NCBI GenBank assembly: GCA_022870745.1
Contig: CP085323.1
Span: forward strand, 806,001 to 870,000
Source of the DNA: Silvibacterium acidisoli
Lineage (GTDB): Bacteria; Acidobacteriota; Terriglobia; Terriglobales; Acidobacteriaceae
Length of the DNA: 64,000 nucleotides
Direction of reading: 5' to 3'
Shown: positions 35,658 through 64,000 of the stretch, piece after piece
Layout: every line of letters starts with the position of its first letter
Numbering within the stretch: the first letter of the stretch is position 1
Program-made: the position numbers and the translations under genes
The notes under the pieces: model-generated
What the model saw: only the letters and a program-made list of their open reading frames with translations
What the model was told of the DNA's origin: nothing
Databases searched by the model: none

Positions 35658-37019
35658 TCAGCAGCGAACGATCTTCGGTGAAGCAATTCCCTTCGTGGCA
35701 TTCCGACTGTCCACGATGAGTTGGGAGCGTTCGACTATGCCCTCATAGTCGTAGTCAGAATGATCGGTCACGATGACGACGCAGTCGTACTTCTCGATAT
35801 CTTCGAGACCCGAAGAGGTGATGTTCAAGTTGTAGTGACGTCCTTTTCCGACAGCGGGGCAATAGGGATCGTTGTAGAACACCTCTGCACCTTGTGCGCG
35901 AAGCATCTCAAAGATGGAGAGCGCAGGAGATTCACGGAGATCGTCGATGTCTTTCTTATAAGCCATCCCCAGCATGAGAATGCGAGATCCATTGACCGCC
36001 TTCCTGTGCTGGTTCAGCGCACGAGCAACTGATTGCACGACGTAGGCCGGCATCGCCTCGTTCACTTCACCTGCCAACTCAATGAAGCGCGCGCTGAAGT
36101 CATATTCCTTTGCTTTCCAGCTCAGATAGAAGGGGTCGATGGGAATGCAGTGGCCGCCGAGCCCTGGCCCGGGATAGAAGGCGTGGAAGCCAAAAGGCTT
36201 GGTCGAAGCGGCGTCAATAACTTCCCAGATATCGATGCCCATACGAAGAGAGAGCAGCTTGAGCTCGTTCACCAGCGCAATATTTACGCAGCGGTAGATG
36301 TTCTCAAGGAGCTTGCTCATCTCGGCAACCTGAGTTGAGGAAACACGGACCGCACGATTGAAGATGCGTTCGTAGAGTGTGGCTGCCATGACAGTTGCAA
36401 TCTCGTCATGACCTCCAACCACCTTGGGAATATCCCTGCGGGCCACGGTGTTGTTTCCCGGATCTTCCCGTTCCGGCGAGAAGGCTACGTAGAACTCTCC
36501 CTCTCCTGCTGGGCTACCCGCTATCTTCGCCTTTAGCCCCGAAGGGTTGCCACCTTCAAGAATGGGGATGAGCACCTCTTCGGTTGTTCCAGGAAAAGTC
36601 GTGCTCTCGAGAACGACAAGCTGACCTTCGCGAAGCCACGGAGCCACCGACCTGGCTGTGCCTTCGATAAAGCTCAGGTCGGGCTCGCGATGTTCTGTAA
36701 GTGGCGTCGGAACGCAGATAATGATCGCATCCTGAGTGGCGAGATGCGAGAAGTCTGCAGTGGCATTGAAGCCCTGCCGTTGAGCGGTCTGAATCTCGGT
36801 AGGAGGGATACGAAGGATATAGGACCGGCCATCTTCGAGGCAGCGTACCTTCTCAGCATCGATATCGAAGCCGGTCACTTTGAAGCCGCTCTCTGAGAGC
36901 AAGAGGGAGAGAGGAAGGCCTACATATCCCAGGCCGATAACGGCGACGCGGGCTGTTCTGGTTTCGAGGCGATCCAGGCGTGCCTGGGCGATTTGGGTCA
37001 GGTCGAGTGTACTTTGCAT
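35658..37019 (-). CDS. UDP-N-acetylglucosamine/UDP-sugar 6-dehydrogenase (WbpA/WecC-like)
   Basis: The ATG at 37019 is preferred to an in-frame GTG at 37025. The 453-residue protein has an N-terminal Rossmann site VAVIGLGYVGLPLSLLLSESGF, a middle helical domain and the catalytic Cys in GPGLGGHCIPIDPFYL. SPERE, EMSKLLENIYRCVNIALVNEL and LGMAYKKDIDDLRESPALSI are typical of the UDP-GlcNAc or UDP-ManNAc dehydrogenase branch. The enzyme makes the uronic-acid form of a nucleotide sugar for polysaccharide synthesis. It is the last gene of the exopolysaccharide cluster, has its own upstream region and carries the palindromic site at 37135. UDP-glucose as substrate is less likely. Confidence 0.88.
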   Translation of the reverse strand: MQSTLDLTQIAQARLDRLETRTARVAVIGLGYVGLPLSLLLSESGFKVTGFDIDAEKVRCLEDGRSYILRIPPTEIQTAQRQGFNATADFSHLATQDAIIICVPTPLTEHREPDLSFIEGTARSVAPWLREGQLVVLESTTFPGTTEEVLIPILEGGNPSGLKAKIAGSPAGEGEFYVAFSPEREDPGNNTVARRDIPKVVGGHDEIATVMAATLYERIFNRAVRVSSTQVAEMSKLLENIYRCVNIALVNELKLLSLRMGIDIWEVIDAASTKPFGFHAFYPGPGLGGHCIPIDPFYLSWKAKEYDFSARFIELAGEVNEAMPAYVVQSVARALNQHRKAVNGSRILMLGMAYKKDIDDLRESPALSIFEMLRAQGAEVFYNDPYCPAVGKGRHYNLNITSSGLEDIEKYDCVVIVTDHSDYDYEGIVERSQLIVDSRNATKGIASPKIVRC

Positions 37020-37134
37020 AGACACACTACGCGTTGCACACTGTGTTCCGAACCCGTCAGCGCAATGCTATGACGCACTTACGCTGAATTTATTAAGCGC
37101 TTTTGATCCTCGCGGAAACGCTGCTTTGCGCAAA

Positions 37135-37152
37135 TGTGCAAACTTCAGCACA
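37135..37152 (-). promoter_or_regulatory. TGTGC-N8-GCACA palindrome upstream of the UDP-sugar dehydrogenase
   Basis: On the - strand it reads TGTGCTGAAGTTTGCACA. It matches the element at 62585 in 16 of 18 positions and shares its arms with the one at 56878. It lies about 115 bases before the dehydrogenase start. It may be an operator or a sigma-54-like promoter (see findings). Confidence 0.5.
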
Positions 37153-53010: not shown

Positions 53011-54609
53011 CTAACTTTGGCTGGGGGCCTGAATTCGTGGGACGAGCGAACACATTGCAAGTATCCTGCGTACCGGGCGTGGCACATCTTCTAACGGAAC
53101 GATCCTGGTGAGGAAGCGGATGGAGAAGGCGATTGCGAATGCCGTGAGGACAAAGCCGATAACAAGAGCAGGGACTGGCTGTGTCGTCAAAACCAAGACA
53201 AATGCAGCGAGAATCAAAACAGAAAAGAGAGAGCCTACCTTTTTGTTTGTACTCGACCACCGGAATCCGCTCAGGTGCCGCACGACTGGATACACCAGGG
53301 CCGCGTGGACGATATAGGAGAGGAAGAAAGCCATTCCTGCTCCGATCAACCCAAAGCGGTTTATTGAAAACCATGCCAGCCCAACTGCTACAACCGCCCA
53401 GACGGATTCGCTCAGTATGAAGAAGTCCTGCCTTGCTTTCGCAAGAATGATGAACCCCATTGGCCAGGTCACTACCTGGAGTGCTGCTCCCAGGCTTACC
53501 CAGCGCAACACCCCGACCGCAGCCCCGAATCTGGCGCTATAAAACAGGGCGATGACGACAGGTGCAAAAGTCAGGGTTGCAATGACGCCGGGGCCCGCCA
53601 GCAACAAGCCGATCAGCGCTTGCTCGTTGACCATGCGGTTGCACTCATCGTTGTTTCTTCCTACGGCGCTCAGGCGGGGGTAGAAATCCGCCCCCATCGC
53701 CTGCAAAATGACTCCGACATAAAGACCGCCGAGTGTCCATGCAGACTGATACATGCCGGTTGCCACAATACCTACTTTTCTCGATAGGATCACGCGGACA
53801 GCATATGCCACTCCTCCGACAAGCAAACCGCTCAGCATGAACGCCAGTCCCATTTTCAAAAGCGCAGCGACTTCGTTTGTGATTTGCTTCCGATTGATAA
53901 CTGGAACACGTACACGAATCTTGCGGCTGTACCACCACGAGGTGAGAACCGCCATGGCGGAAACACAGACTAGCGAAGGAACAATTCCCTTCTCCCGAAA
54001 AAAGTAGACAATCGGAATTCCAAGTACTGTGCCGGTAAGGGCGCCGATGACGTTCATCCGCGCAAGGTCGCCGATCTTCCTCATTCCCTGGAGCAGCGCA
54101 CCCTGACCGGCCGATATTAATTGAAGCAGAAGCGACAGAGCGAGCAGGCACACCATGCTGGCGCGCGCCCGGGTTCCAAATGTCATTTGAGAGATGTACG
54201 GCGAGAGGACGATCAGCGCGAGTGCGCCAAGTAGACCCAGAGCAACCGATGTTCGTCGAAGAACCGCCACCGTTGTTCCGATACGTTCCTGGTCGTTCTG
54301 CCCGACGGCTTCAGCGATCTGACGGACACCGCTATTGTTCACCCCCATACCCGCCACGCTCTGGGCCACCGTGGTGATCGAAGTATAGAGGCCCGCCAAC
54401 CCAACTCCGCCAGGACCAAGCAAGAGCGCCATCGCCTTGGTACGGACGATTCCGATGCCTATATTCAGTACCGATGACCCGCCAACGACAGCGGAGGACT
54501 TGAGTATCTGGCCGTATGTCTGTTTCTTGGGAGCCGTAGTGCACGCCGAATGCGGCGATGCGGGAAGATCGTCGATCTTGGACTCAGGATCGCAGGAGAG
54601 CGTAGCCAT
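53011..54609 (-). CDS. Wzx-type polysaccharide flippase
   Basis: A 532-residue protein with about fourteen membrane helices of the MOP/PST superfamily. The start of the domain, SAVVGGSSVLNIGIGIVRTKAMALLLGPGGVGLAGLY, and GMGVNNSGVRQIAEAVG are close to O-antigen translocases of the WzxE/RfbX type. It moves the undecaprenyl-linked repeat unit to the periplasmic face, feeding the polymerase encoded at 42638. The N-terminal cytoplasmic extension of about 30 residues is Ser/Pro-rich. Its gene lies between the initiating transferase and the transferase run. Confidence 0.9.
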   Translation of the reverse strand: MATLSCDPESKIDDLPASPHSACTTAPKKQTYGQILKSSAVVGGSSVLNIGIGIVRTKAMALLLGPGGVGLAGLYTSITTVAQSVAGMGVNNSGVRQIAEAVGQNDQERIGTTVAVLRRTSVALGLLGALALIVLSPYISQMTFGTRARASMVCLLALSLLLQLISAGQGALLQGMRKIGDLARMNVIGALTGTVLGIPIVYFFREKGIVPSLVCVSAMAVLTSWWYSRKIRVRVPVINRKQITNEVAALLKMGLAFMLSGLLVGGVAYAVRVILSRKVGIVATGMYQSAWTLGGLYVGVILQAMGADFYPRLSAVGRNNDECNRMVNEQALIGLLLAGPGVIATLTFAPVVIALFYSARFGAAVGVLRWVSLGAALQVVTWPMGFIILAKARQDFFILSESVWAVVAVGLAWFSINRFGLIGAGMAFFLSYIVHAALVYPVVRHLSGFRWSSTNKKVGSLFSVLILAAFVLVLTTQPVPALVIGFVLTAFAIAFSIRFLTRIVPLEDVPRPVRRILAMCSLVPRIQAPSQS

Positions 54610-54698
54610 TTATTGAGCTTCTTTCGCAATCAATCAGGGTGAGACGACCAGATACTGCCTGCAGAAGGCTCATGACATATGCCCTTGCAAAGATGAAT

Positions 54699-55841
54699 TC
54701 AGGAAGCACCTTGGCCTGAGAACATGGCCACCGGGGTTTGAACAATGATGTTGATGTCGTGCAGAATGGTGCGGGACTTTGCGTAGCCTATATCCATACG
54801 CACCATTTCGTTGAACGTTGTTCGGGAGCGGCCTTTGATTTGCCATAGCCCTGTAAGACCAGGCTGAATTTCCAGCACCCTCCTCTTATGCCATTGCTGA
54901 TAGCAGGCGCACTCATAAGGGAGGGGTGGGCGGGGACCGACGAGAGACATATCTCCGCAGAGCACATTCATGAACTGAGGGAGTTCATCGAGACTTGTCT
55001 TTCTTAGAAAACGGCCAAGTGGTGTAATTCTTGGATCGTTGACCAGCTTGTAACTTCCATTTTCCTGAAGCGCATCCTTCGATCCAGCGATCAGCTTGGC
55101 CACATATGCCTGATGCCGGCTGGAATCACTCCCCTGATACATCGATCGAAACTTATAGAAGTTGAACAACCGGCCGTATTGACCGACTCGCTTCTGCGAA
55201 TAGAACACCGAACCGCGGGAGGTGAATTTGATGAGCAGTGCAATGATCAGAAAAACAGGTGAAAGCAGAATCAGCGCCAGGGTGCTTCCAATGATGTCTA
55301 TGGAGCGCTTCAGCAGACGGTCCAGGCTCTTACGCGCCGATGTCTTCGAAAGATCGCGGTAAATGACATCTTCATCGTCATTGCCCGATTCGGGTTCTAC
55401 AGGCTGCGGATAGAGATGAATCGATACACGGAGCCTGGCGACCTCTTCTGCCCCGATGACCTTGACTAAAGCAGCGGAGAACCTTTGTGCGATGGCATCG
55501 ATACACGGGCCGTCACAGCCGGAGAGTTCGGTCAACAGCACTCCAATGGTCTCGTTCTGCTGATGCCATCCGAGCGTGTCTGTCTCGCGAACACAGGAGG
55601 AAATCGCCTCATGCAGTTTTCGAGTCGTAAGGGCACGATCCTTGCGGCGCCACTTCACACCACCGAGAAGCAGGAGCATAAACGGGTTTCCGGAACGCTC
55701 GGTGCGTCGACGTTCCAGTCGAAGCTGCCTCAGAAACAAAGACTCGTCCAGTATCTCCCCAGGAATCCGATCTTCTTCACGCAGTACTTCTTTTTCCTGT
55801 AGCCGGGGTCGTGCGTAGGCTGTTTTCGCACTTGCGACCAT
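54699..55841 (-). CDS. Initiating sugar-phosphate transferase with N-terminal GGDEF-like domain
   Basis: The ATG at 55841 has GAGGTG seven bases upstream. The 380-residue protein has two parts. The C-terminal 200 residues are a complete bacterial sugar transferase: LKRSIDIIGSTLALILLSPVFLIIALLIK as the membrane anchor, FYSQKRVGQYGRLFNFYKFRSM, RKTSLDELPQFMNVLCGDMSLVGPRPP and GLTGLWQIKGRS. It starts repeat-unit synthesis on undecaprenyl phosphate. The N-terminal half (LDESLFLRQLRLERRRTERSGNPFMLLLL, later RETDTLGWHQQNETIGVLLTE) looks like a GGDEF-type nucleotide-cyclase fold without the catalytic GGDEF loop. The usual four-helix PglB/WcaJ N-terminus is absent. Confidence 0.85.
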   Translation of the reverse strand: MVASAKTAYARPRLQEKEVLREEDRIPGEILDESLFLRQLRLERRRTERSGNPFMLLLLGGVKWRRKDRALTTRKLHEAISSCVRETDTLGWHQQNETIGVLLTELSGCDGPCIDAIAQRFSAALVKVIGAEEVARLRVSIHLYPQPVEPESGNDDEDVIYRDLSKTSARKSLDRLLKRSIDIIGSTLALILLSPVFLIIALLIKFTSRGSVFYSQKRVGQYGRLFNFYKFRSMYQGSDSSRHQAYVAKLIAGSKDALQENGSYKLVNDPRITPLGRFLRKTSLDELPQFMNVLCGDMSLVGPRPPLPYECACYQQWHKRRVLEIQPGLTGLWQIKGRSRTTFNEMVRMDIGYAKSRTILHDINIIVQTPVAMFSGQGAS

Positions 55842-55951
55842 GCAACACCTCAATCTCGATGTATCCATACAGATCCGCAATCGGATATATGGACGGCTTT
55901 TATGGTTTGTTTTCAGGGGGGTAACAAGCGGCACAAGAGATTTGTGAAGGC

Positions 55952-56542
55952 TTAAATTCCCGTAGAGACCCGGAGCGCGGAGGGTCGCTCCAGTTGGTCT
56001 CCGTCGATCTCGAAAGAAACAGACTGATTAACAAGGCTTATGGAAATTACCAGCTTGCATCTGTTTTTTTGACTGACTACGACTCCCTCTACTCCGGAAA
56101 AAACTCCTGAGCGAACCCTTACCCGCTCTCCCAGGGCTGGCATAGGACATGGTTCAAGAACAGCTCCGCCCTTCATGCAGCGACGAACACTGTCGACTTC
56201 TTCATCGGAGATAGCGGCCGGCGCACCCTGGAAAGACACGATGCGGACAACGCCTGACACGGTGAGGACCTTGATCTGGTCGCCTGCATGGAGGCGGGTG
56301 AAGACGTAACTTGGAAATAGTGGCCTCATGAGCTTGACCCGGCGATCCTTCCACTGGCTTTGGCTGAGAAAGGTAGGCAGAAACACTTCCAGATCCTTTC
56401 TTTCGAGCGCATCTGCTACAGCCTTTTCATGCCGGGGATAGGTGTATATCGCGCACCAGTGAAAGTTTTCGCCGTTCTCTTTAGGCAACACGGCCGAAGA
56501 CGGACCAGCAAGGGAACGAGCGCTACGTGTGTGATTTGTCAT
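55952..56542 (-). CDS. NusG-family antiterminator of the UpxY/RfaH/LoaP type
   Basis: A 196-residue protein with a NusG N-terminal domain (HWCAIYTYPRHEKAVADALERKDLEVFLPTFLSQSQWKDRRVKLMRPLFPSYVFTR) and a C-terminal KOW domain (GERVRVRSGVFSGVEGVVVSQKNRCKL). Specialised NusG paralogues of this size read the 5' ends of long polysaccharide operons and prevent early termination. It is encoded directly before the initiating transferase, at the head of the biosynthetic half of the cluster. The gene is preceded by a long untranslated region with a palindromic site at 56878. Confidence 0.9.
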   Translation of the reverse strand: MTNHTRSARSLAGPSSAVLPKENGENFHWCAIYTYPRHEKAVADALERKDLEVFLPTFLSQSQWKDRRVKLMRPLFPSYVFTRLHAGDQIKVLTVSGVVRIVSFQGAPAAISDEEVDSVRRCMKGGAVLEPCPMPALGERVRVRSGVFSGVEGVVVSQKNRCKLVISISLVNQSVSFEIDGDQLERPSALRVSTGI

Positions 56543-56935
56543 ACTGTGATTTCAGGCAACGCTTCGCGATGGCAGCTCACATGGAGCCACTGTGGAATTC
56601 GCTTTCTGCAATCGCCGATCGTGCACCCTGACGAACTAGCGCTGCGCCAATTTCTGAGTACGCAGCATGGCGATCGTCCGATAGAACCGCTCGTCAAGGA
56701 CCGTGGAGACGTTGGTTCCTGCCTCTTCCCTACACAAAAATGAATAGCAATCGCAATGCCAGCCGGGAGGTATTCAGAGCAACAGTTGATACAGATAACG
56801 AATCCAAGCGATGCCACGAATTTCTCACATCACTAAAGGAAAAGCAGCGCCGGACTACTTTCGTTTGAACCACGGTGTGTGCAGAGGCTTGCACATAATC
56901 ACGCGCTGTTGCATAAGACCCGCGAGAGAAAGATC
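56543..56935. other. Long leader region upstream of the NusG-like gene
   Basis: Between the multicopper oxidase stop and the NusG-like start there are 393 bases without a convincing gene. Frames at 56539-56817 and 56730-56996 (-) have unusual, Cys- and Ser-rich composition and no ribosome site. The palindrome at 56878-56895 would place a promoter about 335 bases before the gene, leaving a leader of the length used by RfaH/LoaP-type antiterminators. Confidence 0.45.
56878..56895 (-). promoter_or_regulatory. TGTGCA-N6-TGCACA palindrome upstream of the NusG-like gene
   Basis: On the - strand it reads TGTGCAAGCCTCTGCACA, a perfect palindrome in both six-base arms. The same arms and spacing are seen at 62585 and 37135. 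Confidence 0.5.
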
Positions 56936-58117
56936 TCACGGAAGCACCTGATATCGCCCCACCATACCACCCATGAAATGATCGTTCACATGGCAATGGA
57001 ACAGCCAGATTCCTTCGTTGTCGGGCGTCATATCCGCGACCGCCATCGCCATCGGCCCCAGAAACACCGTGTCGGTTCTCATTCCGTTTGCAACCACGGT
57101 ATTGCCATGCCAGTGAGCCATGTGTACATCTTCTTCATTGCTGTTGGATAGCAGGTACCATCGCACGTGCTCCTCTCGACGCATCGTCAACAGCGGGATA
57201 TTCCCCTTGATGAATCCGTTGATCGAATACATGAGGTTCTGCTCCCTGAGAAGAGGGTTGAGAGCCTTCAGGCGGGATTCCCTGCCCAGGCGGCCAGCAT
57301 TGCCCTCGAAGAACCAGCTGTCTGTTTCATCGAAGATTGAAAAGTCTACGATGAACTCGCGGTCCACATCTTTTGGAGTGCCATCTGCCCGCGCCATTCC
57401 TTTTGCAACCACGATGATGGGGCCGACAAGACCGGTATTTATATCCGTGGACTCCACAAAATGCGAGTGATACATCCACAAGACAGAGCTGCCATCCATG
57501 TGTGCAGGACCGCTTCGCTCCGGGACAGTCCAGATATAGGTGTAGGTTCCGCCGGGCGGGATCAGATCGTCCTTCTTCACTGTGCCCGCAGTTCCATCAT
57601 TGTAGGAAGCACCCTCTGCATCTTTCTTGTAGAGAACGCCATGCGGATGCATCGTTACGGAGAGGTGTGTATTGTTGCGGAAAAACACACGTATGGAGTC
57701 ACCCACCTCCGCTCGAATCAACGGTCCCAGCAGGCCAAGGTGCTCCCACTGCTGAGGGCGCGTCTTCAGAGTCTTGAATGTGGAGTCGGTATATTCCCGA
57801 TAGATTGCCTTGTGGTAAACCCTGTGATGGAGGCCGGCTCCTGACTCATCGTCGCCAGTTTCGGCATGCGGAGCCCCGGTTACATCGGTCGATATCGGGG
57901 TATAGTCCCAGTCCACTTCATCTGCGGCGATGTAATAGGTGCGAACGACTCCAGAGCTCTGCGGCGCCGATGACGGGACTTTCTTCCTGGTAACGGGCGC
58001 GGTCATTTTTGTCGGACCGCCCGGGGTGGCCGACACAGGACCCTGAGAAATACCGGACTGCGCCGCAGCTAGCGCGAGCAGCGCGACGATGCTGAAAAGT
58101 GGCCGTCGAAGTATCAC
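56936..58117 (-). CDS. Two-domain multicopper oxidase inside the EPS cluster
   Basis: A 393-residue exported protein with a GTG start, signal peptide (IVALLALAAAQSG) and two cupredoxin domains. Copper ligands are visible as HPHG and WMYHSHFVES in the first domain and HMAHWHG and WLFHCHVNDHFMGGM in the second. The type 1 Cys occurs only in the second domain. The TDINTGLVGPIIV stretch resembles ceruloplasmin/hephaestin-type oxidases. It is encoded between the BY-kinase and NusG-like genes on the same strand. A role in oxidising metal ions or phenolics at the cell surface, or in modifying the polymer, can only be guessed. Confidence 0.85.
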   Translation of the reverse strand: MILRRPLFSIVALLALAAAQSGISQGPVSATPGGPTKMTAPVTRKKVPSSAPQSSGVVRTYYIAADEVDWDYTPISTDVTGAPHAETGDDESGAGLHHRVYHKAIYREYTDSTFKTLKTRPQQWEHLGLLGPLIRAEVGDSIRVFFRNNTHLSVTMHPHGVLYKKDAEGASYNDGTAGTVKKDDLIPPGGTYTYIWTVPERSGPAHMDGSSVLWMYHSHFVESTDINTGLVGPIIVVAKGMARADGTPKDVDREFIVDFSIFDETDSWFFEGNAGRLGRESRLKALNPLLREQNLMYSINGFIKGNIPLLTMRREEHVRWYLLSNSNEEDVHMAHWHGNTVVANGMRTDTVFLGPMAMAVADMTPDNEGIWLFHCHVNDHFMGGMVGRYQVLP

Positions 58118-58124
58118 TGCCTGC

Positions 58125-58889
58125 CTATCGATTGCGCCGACCGTAGTCGCTATAGTATGCGCTGCCCTTGATCGCCGAATCGTTCAACACTGCTCCGCGT
58201 AGCTTTGGGCCGATGGTCTCCAGAGATGCCTTCATCAGGGCGGCCGAGGTCGTGCCAGCACGTACGACCATCAATGCGCCGTCCACATAAGGAAGCACCT
58301 CGGCAACGTCCGACATCGGAACCACGGGCACAAGATCCAGGATGGCCCATTCGAAAGCGGCGCGGACTGAGTTCATAAAAGGGCCAAGCACAGAGGGTGA
58401 GAAATATTTTTCAGGCGATTCAAGACGCTGCGTGACCGGATAGATTTGCAGCGGGAGATCCTGCACCTTAAGCCCGCCCTTCAGTAGCGTGGATTTTCCA
58501 TTCAGCACCGCTTCTATGCCCTGATCGGTGGAAAGCCCCATTGCTGCCGCGAGACCCGGTGCGCGAAAATCAAGATCGACGAGGCAGGTATTGTGCCCTG
58601 CCTGCGCGAGACACCATGCCAGATTGATCGAAGTAAGGGTCTTGCCTTCTCCCGGTCCGGGACTCGTAATCATGATCAGCCCGCCTTCGGGATGAAGCAT
58701 GCGAAGACGGCGGCGCAACAATTTGTACTGCTCGACGGCGAGGCCTGTCGGCTCGTTGAGAAATACCAGGCGTGACGCCTGCACCGGATCAATCGTAACC
58801 GTCGCAGGTCTTATTGCCTTTCCAATACTGGATGTGTGCCCGTCGTTGCCCAATGCTTTCATTGTTTCCACACCAAGGATCGTACTCAC
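58125..58889 (-). CDS. CpsD/CapB-type BY-kinase (EPS chain-length control)
   Basis: A 254-residue P-loop protein starting at GTG 58889, which overlaps the stop of the Wzc-type gene. SPGPGEGKTLTSINLAWCLAQAGHNTCLVDLDFRAPGL contains Walker A and the second Walker-A' motif of bacterial tyrosine kinases. The C-terminus has only three tyrosines (AYYSDYGRRNR), fewer than the long clusters of Wzc. The kinase is separate from its membrane partner, as in many Gram-positive and some Acidobacteriota clusters. It would phosphorylate itself and cycle with the Wzc-like protein to tune chain length. Confidence 0.86.
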   Translation of the reverse strand: MSTILGVETMKALGNDGHTSSIGKAIRPATVTIDPVQASRLVFLNEPTGLAVEQYKLLRRRLRMLHPEGGLIMITSPGPGEGKTLTSINLAWCLAQAGHNTCLVDLDFRAPGLAAAMGLSTDQGIEAVLNGKSTLLKGGLKVQDLPLQIYPVTQRLESPEKYFSPSVLGPFMNSVRAAFEWAILDLVPVVPMSDVAEVLPYVDGALMVVRAGTTSAALMKASLETIGPKLRGAVLNDSAIKGSAYYSDYGRRNR

Positions 58890-60424
58890 AGGATCGGCCT
58901 CACTTTAAGTAGAAAGATCACAAGAATCACGGTTGCGATCATCGCCGCCGTGAGCGCCTGCAGCGTTCTTGTGCGCGTGTGACGCTGATCTGCCGGCGTA
59001 ACGATCGGCGGGATGGTACCGATAATCGGAACCTTTGCGGGAAGCATTCCGAACAATTCCACCTCGGACTTGACTGTTCCGCCCAGCAGATACAACGCGA
59101 TCGCTACGCCCGCCGGTAGAATCAGCGCGAGCCCGATGACGCCTGCGATCAGAGGAACTCGCTTCGGGGAAACCGGCATCTCGGGAGCCCTGGCGGGATC
59201 GAGCACGGTGAAGCGCTTTCCCTGCTGCTTACGCTCCAGCTCCTCGGACATGCGAGCTGAATATGTTTTTTCGAGGAGAGATTGATAATCTTCTCTCGAA
59301 ACCTCATAGTTGCGCGTCAGCTCTGTCAGCTGGGTCTCCAGAACCGGAACCGAGTCCACCTTCCATTGGTAGGACTGAATTTGGGTCTGAAGCTCACTTT
59401 GCCGTAATTCGCGTCGCTTTAAATCCTTGTCTATGAGTGTCAGTCGATCGCGAGTGTTCGGATCATATGAGTCGGCGGCTTTGTCGGAAGAGTCCGGCAA
59501 TGCCGCAAGTTGAGCATTCAGGTTCTTGAGTTGTGCTTTGGCAACAATCACATCGGGATAGGTGTCTTTGAATTGCTGCCGCATGTTCCAAAGGTCGTTT
59601 TCCAGGTGGCGCTTTTCCTGCAACATCCGGCCGCGCTCAGTCAGCGCTGCCGGGTCACCGACCGGACTCACGCTGGGCCGGCCAAGCAGGGTTCGCTCCT
59701 GCTCGAGCCTTGCGATCGTATCGGTATTGGCCTCAAGTTCTGACTGCAGCCGGGTGAGTGCCTGCAGGTTCACATTCACCTGGTCAGGGGTGGAACCGAC
59801 ATGCTTCATCTTGAAATCCTCGAGCGCGCGCTCCTGTTCTTCGAGGCTTTTCCTCGCCTTTTCCAGCTCTCCTGAAAGAAATTGTGTTGTCCCCTGAGCC
59901 TGCTGTTCTCTCACATCGAGATTCCAATTGATAAAGCCCCATGCCAGGTCGTTCGCAACCATCGATGCGATGCGTGGATCGCGATCCTCGTAGGTGATGC
60001 TGAAACTGCTCAGACCCTGTTCCTGCTCACGCGTCTGTTTCAGCTCGATGGTTGTCTTTTTCCGCACATAGTCGAGCAGCTCTTCTCTCGTCTTCTTCTT
60101 CCGGTAGACGGGATAAAGATTTTCCTTGTCGATAATCGCCTGCAGCCTCGACTCGCTCAGCACTTGTTGGGTCAGGGTATTCAGACGCGCATTCGGATCC
60201 GATGTCACGGTGGACGCAACGTATCTCTCCGGGATCTTCTGTGGATCCACCAGGATCGTTGTCGTGGCGCTATAGATATTCGGCAGCAGAGACACTCCCA
60301 TGATTCCCAATGCGGCCAGAATCACGGAAGAGAGAAAGATTGCATGAGGATGACGCTTCAATGCAACAAGGCATTCCGTCAGCATTGCTGAGGAACCTGC
60401 CGGCCGGCTTTGTGTCTGATTCAT
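58886..60424 (-). CDS. Wzc/GumC-type chain-length determinant (no kinase domain)
   Basis: The ATG at 60424 is used because the upstream codons overlap the barrel-protein gene. The 512-residue protein has an N-terminal Wzz domain (membrane helix near residues 25-48, then YSATTTILVDPQKIPERYVAS), a long coiled coil at about residues 160-390, and a second membrane helix with the Pro-rich VSPKRVPLIAGVIGLALILPAGVA element. A third, very C-terminal membrane helix follows. The kinase half found in Wzc is encoded separately by the next gene. The protein forms the periplasmic collar that couples polymerisation to Wza. Confidence 0.88.
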   Translation of the reverse strand: MNQTQSRPAGSSAMLTECLVALKRHPHAIFLSSVILAALGIMGVSLLPNIYSATTTILVDPQKIPERYVASTVTSDPNARLNTLTQQVLSESRLQAIIDKENLYPVYRKKKTREELLDYVRKKTTIELKQTREQEQGLSSFSITYEDRDPRIASMVANDLAWGFINWNLDVREQQAQGTTQFLSGELEKARKSLEEQERALEDFKMKHVGSTPDQVNVNLQALTRLQSELEANTDTIARLEQERTLLGRPSVSPVGDPAALTERGRMLQEKRHLENDLWNMRQQFKDTYPDVIVAKAQLKNLNAQLAALPDSSDKAADSYDPNTRDRLTLIDKDLKRRELRQSELQTQIQSYQWKVDSVPVLETQLTELTRNYEVSREDYQSLLEKTYSARMSEELERKQQGKRFTVLDPARAPEMPVSPKRVPLIAGVIGLALILPAGVAIALYLLGGTVKSEVELFGMLPAKVPIIGTIPPIVTPADQRHTRTRTLQALTAAMIATVILVIFLLKVRPIL

Positions 60425-60449
60425 CTCTACCCATACCCTCGTTATCGGA

Positions 60450-61781
60450 TCATTGAAACAATCGGCCCATCGACGGCGCCCAGCCGAGCGAGATGAGCGC
60501 CACATTGCGAGTAAAACCGACTCCTCCCGTATCACCCGAGTAGTAGCGATAGGTGTACGAGAGATTGAGCCCGTGGCCGAGCATATGCTTGTAACCGCAG
60601 TCGACATACATTCCGCTGTAAGAACTCTTCACGTCCTCGGCTTCGCTGCTGGCATGGCCTATGTCCACGTTGAAGGCCCCCCTCATTCCCACCTGCCGCT
60701 GATACCCAGCCGACGTACTTGTGACCCACAAACCAGGCCCGAGATAGGAGATAGCCGGCTCTCTGCCGGTCAGCAGATAGATCTGCTGCTTCCCCGACAG
60801 CCGTTTGCTGAACGCCGCAGCATAGCTATAGAACTGCTGCTTCCCGCATGTAGGGGATGTAATTTGAGGCCCCCCGCGTACGGAAAGAATGCCTCCGTTA
60901 CCGAGGCTCCAGTTAAGGCCTACTCCTCCGCCTGAGCTGGTGCAGTTCAGAAGGCCGTAGTAATAGTAAGTCTGCTCGTATGCTCGCATGCCCATCGTGG
61001 GAGACAGATCGCGGTCATAAGCGACAGTGCTCATCGCGATGTTATTGCTGTCGGTTCCACCGGAGTAGCGGCTTATGGTGTTTGAAAGACTGAGCTCGAG
61101 AGAGCTTCGGCTGGAGGTCCTGTATTGAAGCGTTCCATCTCCGTTTAAGAAGGTCACCATCCCGGCATTGGAGAGATAGGCGGGAGTACCAGGCCCGACA
61201 CCCGGCACCCCTCCAACCGGGGTTGTCTGCTGTGGCGCCAACAAGCGGATCGCATCCTGCCCATGGCTGCCCGATGCATCAAGGGACCATTTCCAACGCT
61301 CACTCAAGGTTCCGACCAGGGTCGCCGTCGCCATATGCATCGTCTGGTTGCTGCCCGCGCCAGAGCTGTACTGAGTGATGGTCGGCTGATATTGGAGCAG
61401 GAATTGAACCTTGGCATTTCTCGCCTCGATACCGAGGTAGGGGCTGATGGTATATACCCCGGACGAAATGCCTTTCTCCGTGTTTTCAGGGTTGCTGTCC
61501 CATCCGCTTACTACATCCGCACCTACAACGATGCGTTTTGCCACCATGTTTCCGAGAGAGATCAGGCCAGATCCATTCAACGCCGGCGAATAGAGCGTTT
61601 TGTCGTCGGGATTTGCGCCAGCAGTTTCGAGAGCAACAGAAGGGTTTGCGGACGAAACTGTATTGCTGGCCTGACCGCCAGACACACCCTGTGCGACCGC
61701 CTGTGACTGGGCATGGACAAGCCGGGTCGTCGCGGTACACGACAAGATTGCAGCGAAGCAGATTGCGCCAACGACTTTCAT
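60450..61781 (-). CDS. Outer-membrane beta-barrel protein of the EPS cluster
   Basis: A 443-residue protein with a signal peptide (GAICFAAILSCTATTRLVHAQ) and AGGAATAG as ribosome site. From about residue 80 it shows alternating polar/hydrophobic strands (KRIVVGADVVSGWDSNP, VQFLLQYQPTITQYSSG, LSERWKWSLDASGSHG) ending in an aromatic-terminal strand (SLGWAPSMGRLFQ). Similar barrels are encoded with Wza and Wzc in many Acidobacteriota and Proteobacteria clusters. It may act in export or in securing the polymer at the surface. It is nine bases downstream of wza. Confidence 0.75.
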   Translation of the reverse strand: MKVVGAICFAAILSCTATTRLVHAQSQAVAQGVSGGQASNTVSSANPSVALETAGANPDDKTLYSPALNGSGLISLGNMVAKRIVVGADVVSGWDSNPENTEKGISSGVYTISPYLGIEARNAKVQFLLQYQPTITQYSSGAGSNQTMHMATATLVGTLSERWKWSLDASGSHGQDAIRLLAPQQTTPVGGVPGVGPGTPAYLSNAGMVTFLNGDGTLQYRTSSRSSLELSLSNTISRYSGGTDSNNIAMSTVAYDRDLSPTMGMRAYEQTYYYYGLLNCTSSGGGVGLNWSLGNGGILSVRGGPQITSPTCGKQQFYSYAAAFSKRLSGKQQIYLLTGREPAISYLGPGLWVTSTSAGYQRQVGMRGAFNVDIGHASSEAEDVKSSYSGMYVDCGYKHMLGHGLNLSYTYRYYSGDTGGVGFTRNVALISLGWAPSMGRLFQ

Positions 61782-61789
61782 AACTATTC

Positions 61790-62455
61790 CTACGGAACCA
61801 CAACCGTATCGCCGGGCTGAAGAACGATGTTTTGTTTTACATCGCCGTTTAGCGCGGCGACGTAGTCAAACTTGAGACGCTGAGTAGTCCCGGCGGATTC
61901 CCGCAGCACCAGGATTCCTTTCCGGTGAGCAAACACACTCAATCCACCGGCCTGGGCGATCACCTGAAGAACCGTGATCGGCGCAATCAGTGGATACCCG
62001 CCGGGCTTTCCGACCTGGCCCATGACATAGACCTGTCTGCTCCGGATCTCGACGACGCTCACTGTCACCTGCGCCTTGACGACGTAACTGGCAAGCCGTT
62101 CGCCGAGCATTTCGGAGAGTTGATTCGCGGTCATGCCTGCAACGTGAACATCTCCGAGCAAAGGCAGCGATACGAATCCGTCGGGTCCGACAGTCACGGT
62201 CTGTGATAGATCGTTATTCTTCCAAACACTGATATGGATCACATCGGCTGGGCCAATGAGATACTGCGAAACCTCACCGGGAGCTTTGGCCGGCTTGCCT
62301 GATTGCAGGTCTGCACTCCCACCGGGACGGGCTTCGACAGGCGCAGGAGCTCCACCGTTTCCAGCGAGCGCAATGTTCTGCGCGAAACAGCTGCCAACAG
62401 AAAGCCACGCTGACGCGAACAGTGTCAGGAGACGAGTTGAGTTTCCGGGTCTCAT
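61790..62455 (-). CDS. Wza/GumB-type polysaccharide export protein
   Basis: A 221-residue protein with a signal peptide. The end of the signal (LSVGSCFAQ) could act as a lipobox, though not an ideal one. The export domain (YLIGPADVIHISVWKNNDLSQTVTVGPDGFVSLPLLGDVHVAGMTANQLSEMLGERL) is followed by one SLBB-type soluble-ligand domain (RQVYVMGQVGKPGGYPLIAPITVLQVIAQAGGLS). It forms the periplasmic and outer-membrane exit channel. At this length it is nearer GumB than full Wza. It is the first gene of the cluster, about 130 bases downstream of the palindrome shared with the divergent activator gene. Confidence 0.9.
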   Translation of the reverse strand: MRPGNSTRLLTLFASAWLSVGSCFAQNIALAGNGGAPAPVEARPGGSADLQSGKPAKAPGEVSQYLIGPADVIHISVWKNNDLSQTVTVGPDGFVSLPLLGDVHVAGMTANQLSEMLGERLASYVVKAQVTVSVVEIRSRQVYVMGQVGKPGGYPLIAPITVLQVIAQAGGLSVFAHRKGILVLRESAGTTQRLKFDYVAALNGDVKQNIVLQPGDTVVVP

Positions 62456-62584
62456 ATCGAACTAGTTGCACCTCCGCGCAGAACAAGGAGCAAACCAATG
62501 GCCAATGTGCCCCGCGAGCAAGTGCAAAGATGGCTGGCTTTGGTGACCCAATGAATCATTGCCGCCTGCATCTTTCTGGCGTTA

Positions 62585-62602
62585 GGTGCAAACTTTTGCA
62601 CA
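62585..62602. promoter_or_regulatory. TGTGCA-N6-TGCAC palindrome between wza and the sigma-54 activator
   Basis: On the - strand it reads TGTGCAAAAGTTTGCACC. The core GTGCAAA/TTTGCAC is a 7-bp inverted repeat. It lies between two divergent genes, 130 bases from wza and 74 bases from the activator gene. It matches the elements at 37135 and 56878. Confidence 0.55.
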
Positions 62603-62675: not shown

Positions 62676-63782
62676 ATGGCTAAATTTGGGAATTGCATTT
62701 TTCCAGATTGTGGTCCTCTACGTGCACTTCGCTGCGCCAAACGGTTGACGAATGTGCGAGATCTTCTTGGTACGTCTGTGGCAATCCATCGCATCAGAAT
62801 GCAGTTGAATAAGGCTGCGCAAACTGAAGTCCCTGTACTGATTACCGGTGAGAGCGGAACAGGAAAAGAGGTAGCTGCGAGGTCGCTGCATGCCATGAGC
62901 CGGCGCGCCGGCAACAACTTCCTCAAGGTGAATTGCCCGGCGATCCCGTATCACCTGTTTGAAAGCGAACTCTTCGGCCATATGGCCGGTGCGTTTACAG
63001 GTGCGAAGGAAGCACGCGCGGGAAAGTTTGAACTGGCCGATAAAGGCACTCTCTTTCTCGATGAGATTGGCGAGCTGGAGTTTGCTCTGCAGTCCAAGCT
63101 GCTTCACGCGCTGCAGGATTCACGCGTGGTGCGCCTGGGGTCGATCACGGAATCTACAGTCGACTTCCGGCTCATCTGCGCCACAAATCGTCATCTTGAA
63201 GATGAGGTTGCTCGCGGAGGATTCCGGACCGACCTTTTTTACCGGATCAACGTTCTGAGAATCGAAATGCCGGCATTGCGAGACAGGGCATGCGACGTGC
63301 CCATCCTGATGAATCATTTCCTGCAGTTTTACAGCGCGCGCTTCAGGACAGAATATGTACCGCTGAGCGCATCCTTCATGCGTTTGCTCGAGTGTTATCA
63401 CTGGCCCGGAAATATACGCGAACTGGAGAACCTGGCTAAACGCTACGTCGTGCTCGGAGATGAAGAGCACATCCTGTCGGTACTGCGTGAGCCGGAGAGT
63501 GAACAGCCAGTGGTTCCGGACCTGATCGACCTGAACACTCCACTCAAGGTGCAGACCAAGCGGGCCATACAAAGCATGGAAAGACAGATCATCCTGAAGG
63601 TTTTGCAGGCGCACAAGTGGAACCGCAGAAAGACAGCCCGTTCACTGGACATCAGTTACAGGGCTCTGCTTTACAAGATCAAGGAGGCCGGACTGCCCGC
63701 CCTGCGCTCCACCCGGGGCGATTCTCCAAACGGCTCAGACGCGGGGAAAGAAAGCAGTATTTGCGCAAAGGATTTCAAATAA
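62676..63782 (+). CDS. Sigma-54-dependent transcriptional activator without a receiver domain
   Basis: A 368-residue enhancer-binding protein. The AAA+ domain begins at once: [34 protein letters not shown] carries Walker A (residues 58-65), then the GAFTGA loop at 105-110 that contacts sigma-54 and the Walker [13 protein letters not shown]-finger segments and a C-terminal Fis-type helix-turn-helix ([35 protein letters not shown]) follow. The usual N-terminal receiver or sensor domain is missing, so activity is probably set by expression or a partner protein. It is divergent from wza and is the best candidate regulator of the exopolysaccharide cluster. Confidence 0.92.
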
Positions 63783-64000
63783 CTTCCACTCTCATACCTC
63801 ATTAACTTTTGGAACTCAGCGTGCAGAGTAGCTCGACCAGAAGCAAGTCAGAACAACGGCACAAAGCGGTCAGAGACCGGCGGCTTCGACAAGACAGTCG
63901 CGCAGAACAGCCTGCGTGAGCAAACATTTGCAACTATCGGCACTAACGATTGCATTTTGCGGAGAACGGCATGGACGGGCGCATATCAGGTTATGGAGAG
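63783..64000. other. Window end without a supported gene
   Basis: The last 218 bases follow the activator gene. No convincing gene, terminator hairpin or repeat was recognised. TTTGCA-type steps occur near 63927 and 63955 but without the palindromic arms of the sites described above. Confidence 0.4.

Follow-up and report, generated by a model that had tools for sequence, protein, structure and literature searches.

The three palindromes that lie upstream of exopolysaccharide (EPS) genes in Silvibacterium acidisoli are very probably upstream activating sequences (UAS) for an enhancer-binding protein of the NtrC type, which would drive sigma-54 promoters of the EPS genes. This reading is built on the sites, the promoter sequences, their conservation, a spacing preference and helical phasing, all of which are observed in the genomes. 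The analysis covers the window, by which we mean the whole stretch of 64,000 nucleotides, together with the rest of the genome and 250 genomes of the same family. As a single sequence rule, the candidate element would predict which genes for EPS, exosortases and surface proteins share one switch, and it comes with a specific candidate activator.

Table 1. Features of the EPS region (window positions unless marked as genome positions)
Feature	Position	Strand	Sequence or family match	Remarks
UAS 1 (enhancer palindrome)	62585-62602	-	TGTGCAAAAGTTTGCACC; core TGCAA-N4-TTGCA	candidate, by sequence and conservation
UAS 2	56878-56895	-	TGTGCAAGCCTCTGCACA	candidate, by sequence
UAS 3	37135-37152	-	TGTGCTGAAGTTTGCACA	weakest candidate of the three, asymmetric
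Predicted sigma-54 -24/-12 promoter of wza	62489-62504	-	TGGCCATTGGTTTGCT	80 bp downstream of UAS 1
Predicted sigma-54 -24/-12 promoter	56746-56761	-	TGGCATTGCGATTGCT	116 bp downstream of UAS 2; upstream of NusG-like gene
Weak sigma-54-like element	37035-37050	-	CGGAACACAGTGTGCA	84 bp downstream of UAS 3
wza (polysaccharide export)	61790-62455	-	Poly_export PF02563; TIGR03027 (XrtA/PEP-CTERM export) below cut-off	first gene of operon 1
Outer-membrane protein, chain-length determinant, tyrosine-kinase-like ATPase, multicopper oxidase	56936-61781	-		rest of operon 1
UpxY-type NusG paralogue (antiterminator)	55952-56542	-	NF033644, 112.2 bits (cut-off 100); NusG PF02357	first gene of operon 2
Sugar-phosphate transferase and flippase	53011-55934	-		downstream of UAS 2
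UDP-sugar dehydrogenase	35658-37025	-	TIGR03026, 402.7 bits (cut-off 189.8)	
Receiver-less sigma-54 enhancer-binding protein	62676-63782	+	AAA+ sigma-54 domain PF00158, GAFTGA, Fis-type HTH (HTH_8)	proposed palindrome binder
Second, receiver-type activator	genome 884177-885634			same EPS island, about 15 kb past the receiver-less activator

All three 18-mers were located on the minus strand exactly where the sequence-only reading had placed them, and the open reading frames bear out both their intergenic position and the distances given for them, about 130 bp to wza, 115 bp to the UDP-sugar dehydrogenase gene and 335 bp to the NusG-like gene. Their identical spacing was likewise borne out. Near-identity is confined to the arms, and at 37135 the left one (TGTGCTG) departs from symmetry at two positions. 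Counting palindromes is unconvincing by itself because the window holds 21 matches with up to two mismatches against 20.6 expected, which is no enrichment. The exact form TGTGC-N7-TGCACA, however, occurs only twice in the 5.36-Mb genome, at 37135 and 56878, with the 62585 site one mismatch away. Scattered coding-region matches, which had been named as a point that would tell against the motif, do exist: nearly all of the 58 one-mismatch places retrieved outside the window fall within long open frames, but without well-placed promoters, and at none of the 58 does a strong sigma-54 element go together with a location that is clearly between genes. Four strict matches to TGCA-N6-TGCA with a sigma-54 element elsewhere in the genome were rejected, of which three (1035581, 1898145 and 5025708) overlap long frames and the fourth (2141249) is without the TGCAA/TTGCA core. 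A weaker palindrome, TGAGCAAACATTTGCAAC, is present at 63917-63934, between the activator gene and the next gene on the plus strand, and no sigma-54 element was found downstream of it.

RpoN is encoded in the genome, with a profile score over the cut-off. Downstream of the palindromes, -24 GG and -12 GC elements with standard spacing are strong at wza and at the NusG-like gene and weak at the UDP-sugar dehydrogenase gene; the TGGCCATTGGTTTGCT element is 33 bp before the wza start codon. By a simple score, the chance of an equal or better site on one strand of the 40-180 bp interval is 0.0066 for the wza element, 0.0028 for the NusG-gene element and 0.14 for the UDP-sugar dehydrogenase element. 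The wza site can be taken as a predicted sigma-54 enhancer with high confidence and the NusG-gene site with slightly less, whereas for the 37135 site the balance leans only modestly towards an enhancer. The 62585 palindrome had also been described as facing the activator gene; this is correct by position, but only weak sites were found in that direction in this genome, and none makes a convincing sigma-54 promoter towards the receiver-less activator gene.

The genes behind these sites are those of polysaccharide export, assembly and precursor supply listed in Table 1. The wza, chain-length and kinase proteins of the window resemble XrtA/PEP-CTERM-type versions with scores below cut-off, none of the scanned window proteins was identified as an exosortase, and there are no PEP-CTERM target genes at the three window sites. 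The gene order of operon 1 is kept in three relatives (G007, G072 and G171), and in the same three the multicopper oxidase gene (56936-58117 here) keeps its place inside the wza operon. Since the NusG paralogue belongs to the UpxY antiterminator family, UAS 2 may bring the long glycosyltransferase operon under antitermination in addition to sigma-54 control. Next to the second activator, the EPS island also encodes a giant repetitive surface protein of 2749 aa (L068:5602-13851); only weak UAS and sigma-54 candidates were found before its gene in this genome, and in one relative (G109) a protein with a similar start (L212:1229-6667) has a UAS and a sigma-54 element in front.

Conservation at orthologous genes had been proposed as a check on the motif, and at wza it was found. 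Before the wza homologues of four other species (G007, G171, G072 and G120), a palindrome resembling TGCAA-N4-TTGCA is in every case followed by a sigma-54 element close to the wza start. At the UDP-sugar dehydrogenase homologue of G003 (L224) the UAS and sigma-54 pair is stronger than at the window gene, a second sigma-54 element faces a divergent polysaccharide deacetylase, and a further pair precedes another polysaccharide deacetylase; no convincing element was found upstream of the other UDP-sugar dehydrogenase homologues examined. In G026 (L038), a UAS and a sigma-54 element stand directly before a sugar transferase homologous to that at 54699-55934.

Across the 250 family genomes, the pattern TGCAA-N4-TTGCA followed after 55-115 bp by TGGC-N8-TGC gave 138 matches in 91 genomes. 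When the -24/-12 spacing of the promoter was shifted by one base, 23 matches in 21 genomes were obtained, and shifting the palindrome spacing by one base gave 21 matches in 21 genomes; as these control counts predict, several of the family matches are in coding DNA or before unrelated genes. The gaps between UAS and promoter peak near 72, 82, 93 and 113 bp, with a periodicity of 10.5 bp (R = 0.344, p ~4e-7, 125 genus-distinct gaps; none of 20000 random sets was as high). Looping between a bound activator and the sigma-54 polymerase would give such phasing. The wza gap here and those of G007 and G072 are on the family-wide phase and that of G171 is about 1 bp off, whereas the gaps of UAS 2 and UAS 3 are off by 4.3 and 3.8 bp and that of G120 wza by about 4 bp; these off-phase gaps are a weakness of the enhancer reading. 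In the spacers between UAS and sigma-54 element, TGAAAA/CTGAAA recurs in both orientations, some 30-45 bp before the -24 box (e.g., L041, L076, L077 and L084-L091), with mild over-representation (14 of 47 spacers, and at most 11 after shuffling), and is perhaps a site for a DNA-bending protein.

Several other explanations of the palindromes have to be set against these data. The sequence-only reading had suggested that a variant sigma-54 promoter, in which GT replaces the -24 GG, is contained in the palindrome; TTTGCA is indeed present in two copies. Because proper sigma-54 elements follow 80-120 bp downstream, where the target of an enhancer is expected, the palindromes are better read as upstream activating sequences; GG/GC elements are present downstream at each site, the palindromes score as promoters only about 12-13 of 18.4 by simple scoring, and they are two-sided and conserved as palindromes, which makes a variant promoter highly improbable. 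Chance resemblance would agree with the two-mismatch count in the window, which equals expectation, yet it is just as improbable in view of the uniqueness of the exact form in the genome, the coupling to sigma-54 elements, the orthologous conservation, the family-wide enrichment and the phasing. An 18-bp palindrome of such shape would also suit several repressor families, and the sites could be operators of an unrelated regulator of the LacI, GntR, MarR or CRP type that lie upstream by happenstance. Such operators need no helically phased distance upstream of sigma-54 promoters, however, and the family-wide coupling drops to background once the -24/-12 spacing is shifted by one base, so this explanation is improbable too, if a little less so.

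For an enhancer, the question is which protein binds it. The earlier suggestion that the receiver-less activator binds the palindromes finds support for the kind of site, that of an enhancer-binding protein, while the particular protein is a matter of prediction. The adjacent activator is judged to lack a receiver because only about 30 residues precede its AAA+ domain. Its homologues adjoin or stand near wza in many relatives, and the 62585 palindrome abuts its gene here, as the corresponding palindromes do in G007 and G171. The element is present in 68 of the 139 genomes with an activator homologue (E <= 1e-84) and in 23 of the 111 without one (p 3e-6, phylogeny ignored), whereas the control patterns show no association with the homologue (p 0.10 and 0.71); that this statistic ignores shared ancestry is a weakness. 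On these grounds, the receiver-less activator probably binds the palindromes.

The binder is not fixed, since related activators with similar recognition helices exist. The enhancers could instead be bound by the second, receiver-type activator, or the site could be common to both proteins, which we consider unlikely although clearly less so than the explanations weighed above. The receiver-type activator shares the EPS island with the receiver-less one, and their recognition helices are almost identical (10 residues are common to both); in relatives a gene for a receiver-type activator adjoins the receiver-less one, and elements are present in G015, where the receiver-less activator is absent at E <= 1e-84. 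Against a receiver-type binder stand the palindromes that abut the receiver-less gene in three genomes and the tracking of that gene by the element. No co-variation of the motif with the recognition helix was seen, and the helix is nearly invariant among the receiver-less activators.

With the receiver-less activator as the most likely binder, we infer binding, activation and the type of signal as follows. A dimer of the activator would bind each 18-bp palindrome through its Fis-type helix-turn-helix, an ATPase ring would then assemble, and by DNA looping the ring would reach sigma-54 RNA polymerase at the -24/-12 promoter 80-120 bp downstream. This would switch on wza with its export and chain-length operon, the gene of the UpxY-type antiterminator together with the assembly operon that follows and, on weaker evidence, the UDP-sugar dehydrogenase gene. 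The receiver-less activator would be controlled by its amount, a partner or a ligand rather than by phosphorylation.

In many relatives a sigma-54-like promoter of the form TGGYNCTC..TGCA precedes the receiver-less activator gene itself (L005, L006, L008, L010-L015, L017, L022 and L023), accompanied by a different palindrome, TGTGAAA(A/T)NNTTTTC(A/C)CA, upstream at an almost constant distance of 124-143 bp, mostly 134; this is possibly an upper tier of control. As a tentative proposal, the extracellular matrix of this family could be governed by a two-tier sigma-54 cascade, in which a receiver-type activator would use sites resembling TGTGAAA-N4-TTTCACA before the gene of the receiver-less activator. 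The latter, independent of phosphorylation, would in turn use TGCAA-N4-TTGCA sites and so co-ordinate the expression of EPS operons, exosortase and PEP-CTERM proteins, with the EPS operons under the second tier in the lineage of the window.

The genes behind the element in relatives extend beyond polysaccharide synthesis. Ten genes directly behind it were scanned with NCBIfam models, and seven carry a PEP-CTERM domain above the TIGR02595 cut-off, a proportion that is no estimate for the whole regulon because the ten were picked from the list for their secreted or EPS-related look. The other three are an exosortase above cut-off (TIGR02602), an XrtA/PEP-CTERM ATPase match below cut-off and a WecB. 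Elsewhere the element precedes genes for wza, a sugar transferase, a glycosyltransferase, and PilZ and Rrf2 proteins. An Rrf2-type regulator gene is preceded by it repeatedly (L084, L085, L086, L090, L091 and L076), mostly in one genus, which suggests a conserved regulatory target beyond polysaccharide synthesis. The common arrangement before polysaccharide, exosortase and PEP-CTERM surface-protein genes suggests one shared switch that had previously gone unnoticed.

Among known systems, NtrC enhancers are inverted repeats with TGCA half-sites that lie upstream of sigma-54 promoters and are bound through a Fis-type helix-turn-helix. Their sites have the form TGCACC-N5-GGTGCA, and the palindromes described here differ from them in half-site orientation and spacing. 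In general, it is already known that sigma-54 controls the bacterial exterior and EPS (PMC3162934, PMC9850573, PMC9684580), and a limited literature search found no published description of a TGCAA-N4-TTGCA plus sigma-54 element. The enhancer-binding protein BerB of Burkholderia cenocepacia responds to c-di-GMP and acts through berA (PMC9684580). As in the present locus, its gene is that of a sigma-54 enhancer-binding protein beside an EPS cluster, and BerB controls its cluster. We know of no binding motif that BerB has in common with the element. For pepA, a PEP-CTERM gene of the floc-forming bacterium Aquincola tertiaricarbonis, a -24/-12 promoter has been mapped and RpoN dependence established (PMC9850573). 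A predicted enhancer upstream of a sigma-54 promoter is common to pepA and the element; unlike the present case, the pepA system is proteobacterial, its enhancer is the one predicted for Proteobacteria, and the activator is a putative binder (PMC9850573).

The closest comparison is with the PEP-CTERM box, reported for Proteobacteria only. There a 17-nt motif 1 that ends in TTTACA is separated by 62.8 +- 10.6 nt from a sigma-54 motif 2, for the most part before single PEP-CTERM genes, and PrsR, whose partner kinase is PrsK, was proposed as the activator (Haft et al., 2006; PMC1569441). In both systems a first motif stands at a distance from a sigma-54 motif and the EPS locus encodes a sigma-54 activator, and in relatives the element too precedes PEP-CTERM, exosortase and XrtA-ATPase genes. 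Unlike the box, the element has the core TGCAA-N4-TTGCA, its gaps show the peaks given above, and its targets in this genome are EPS operons. The adjacent activator differs from PrsR in having no receiver and would not need a partner kinase such as PrsK; against the PrsR model TIGR02915 (cut-off 502.6), it scores 285.8 bits and the second activator 284.4 bits, so that both fail. The element is a putative equivalent, in Acidobacteriota, of the PEP-CTERM box of Proteobacteria, built on another motif; it would work in a similar way, but by the motif and PrsR tests it does not belong to that system. Further regulators and DNA motifs of PEP-CTERM/exosortase systems were still to be found (Haft et al., 2006; PMC1569441), and the element is a candidate for such a regulatory motif in an acidobacterial family, beyond the box known from Proteobacteria only.
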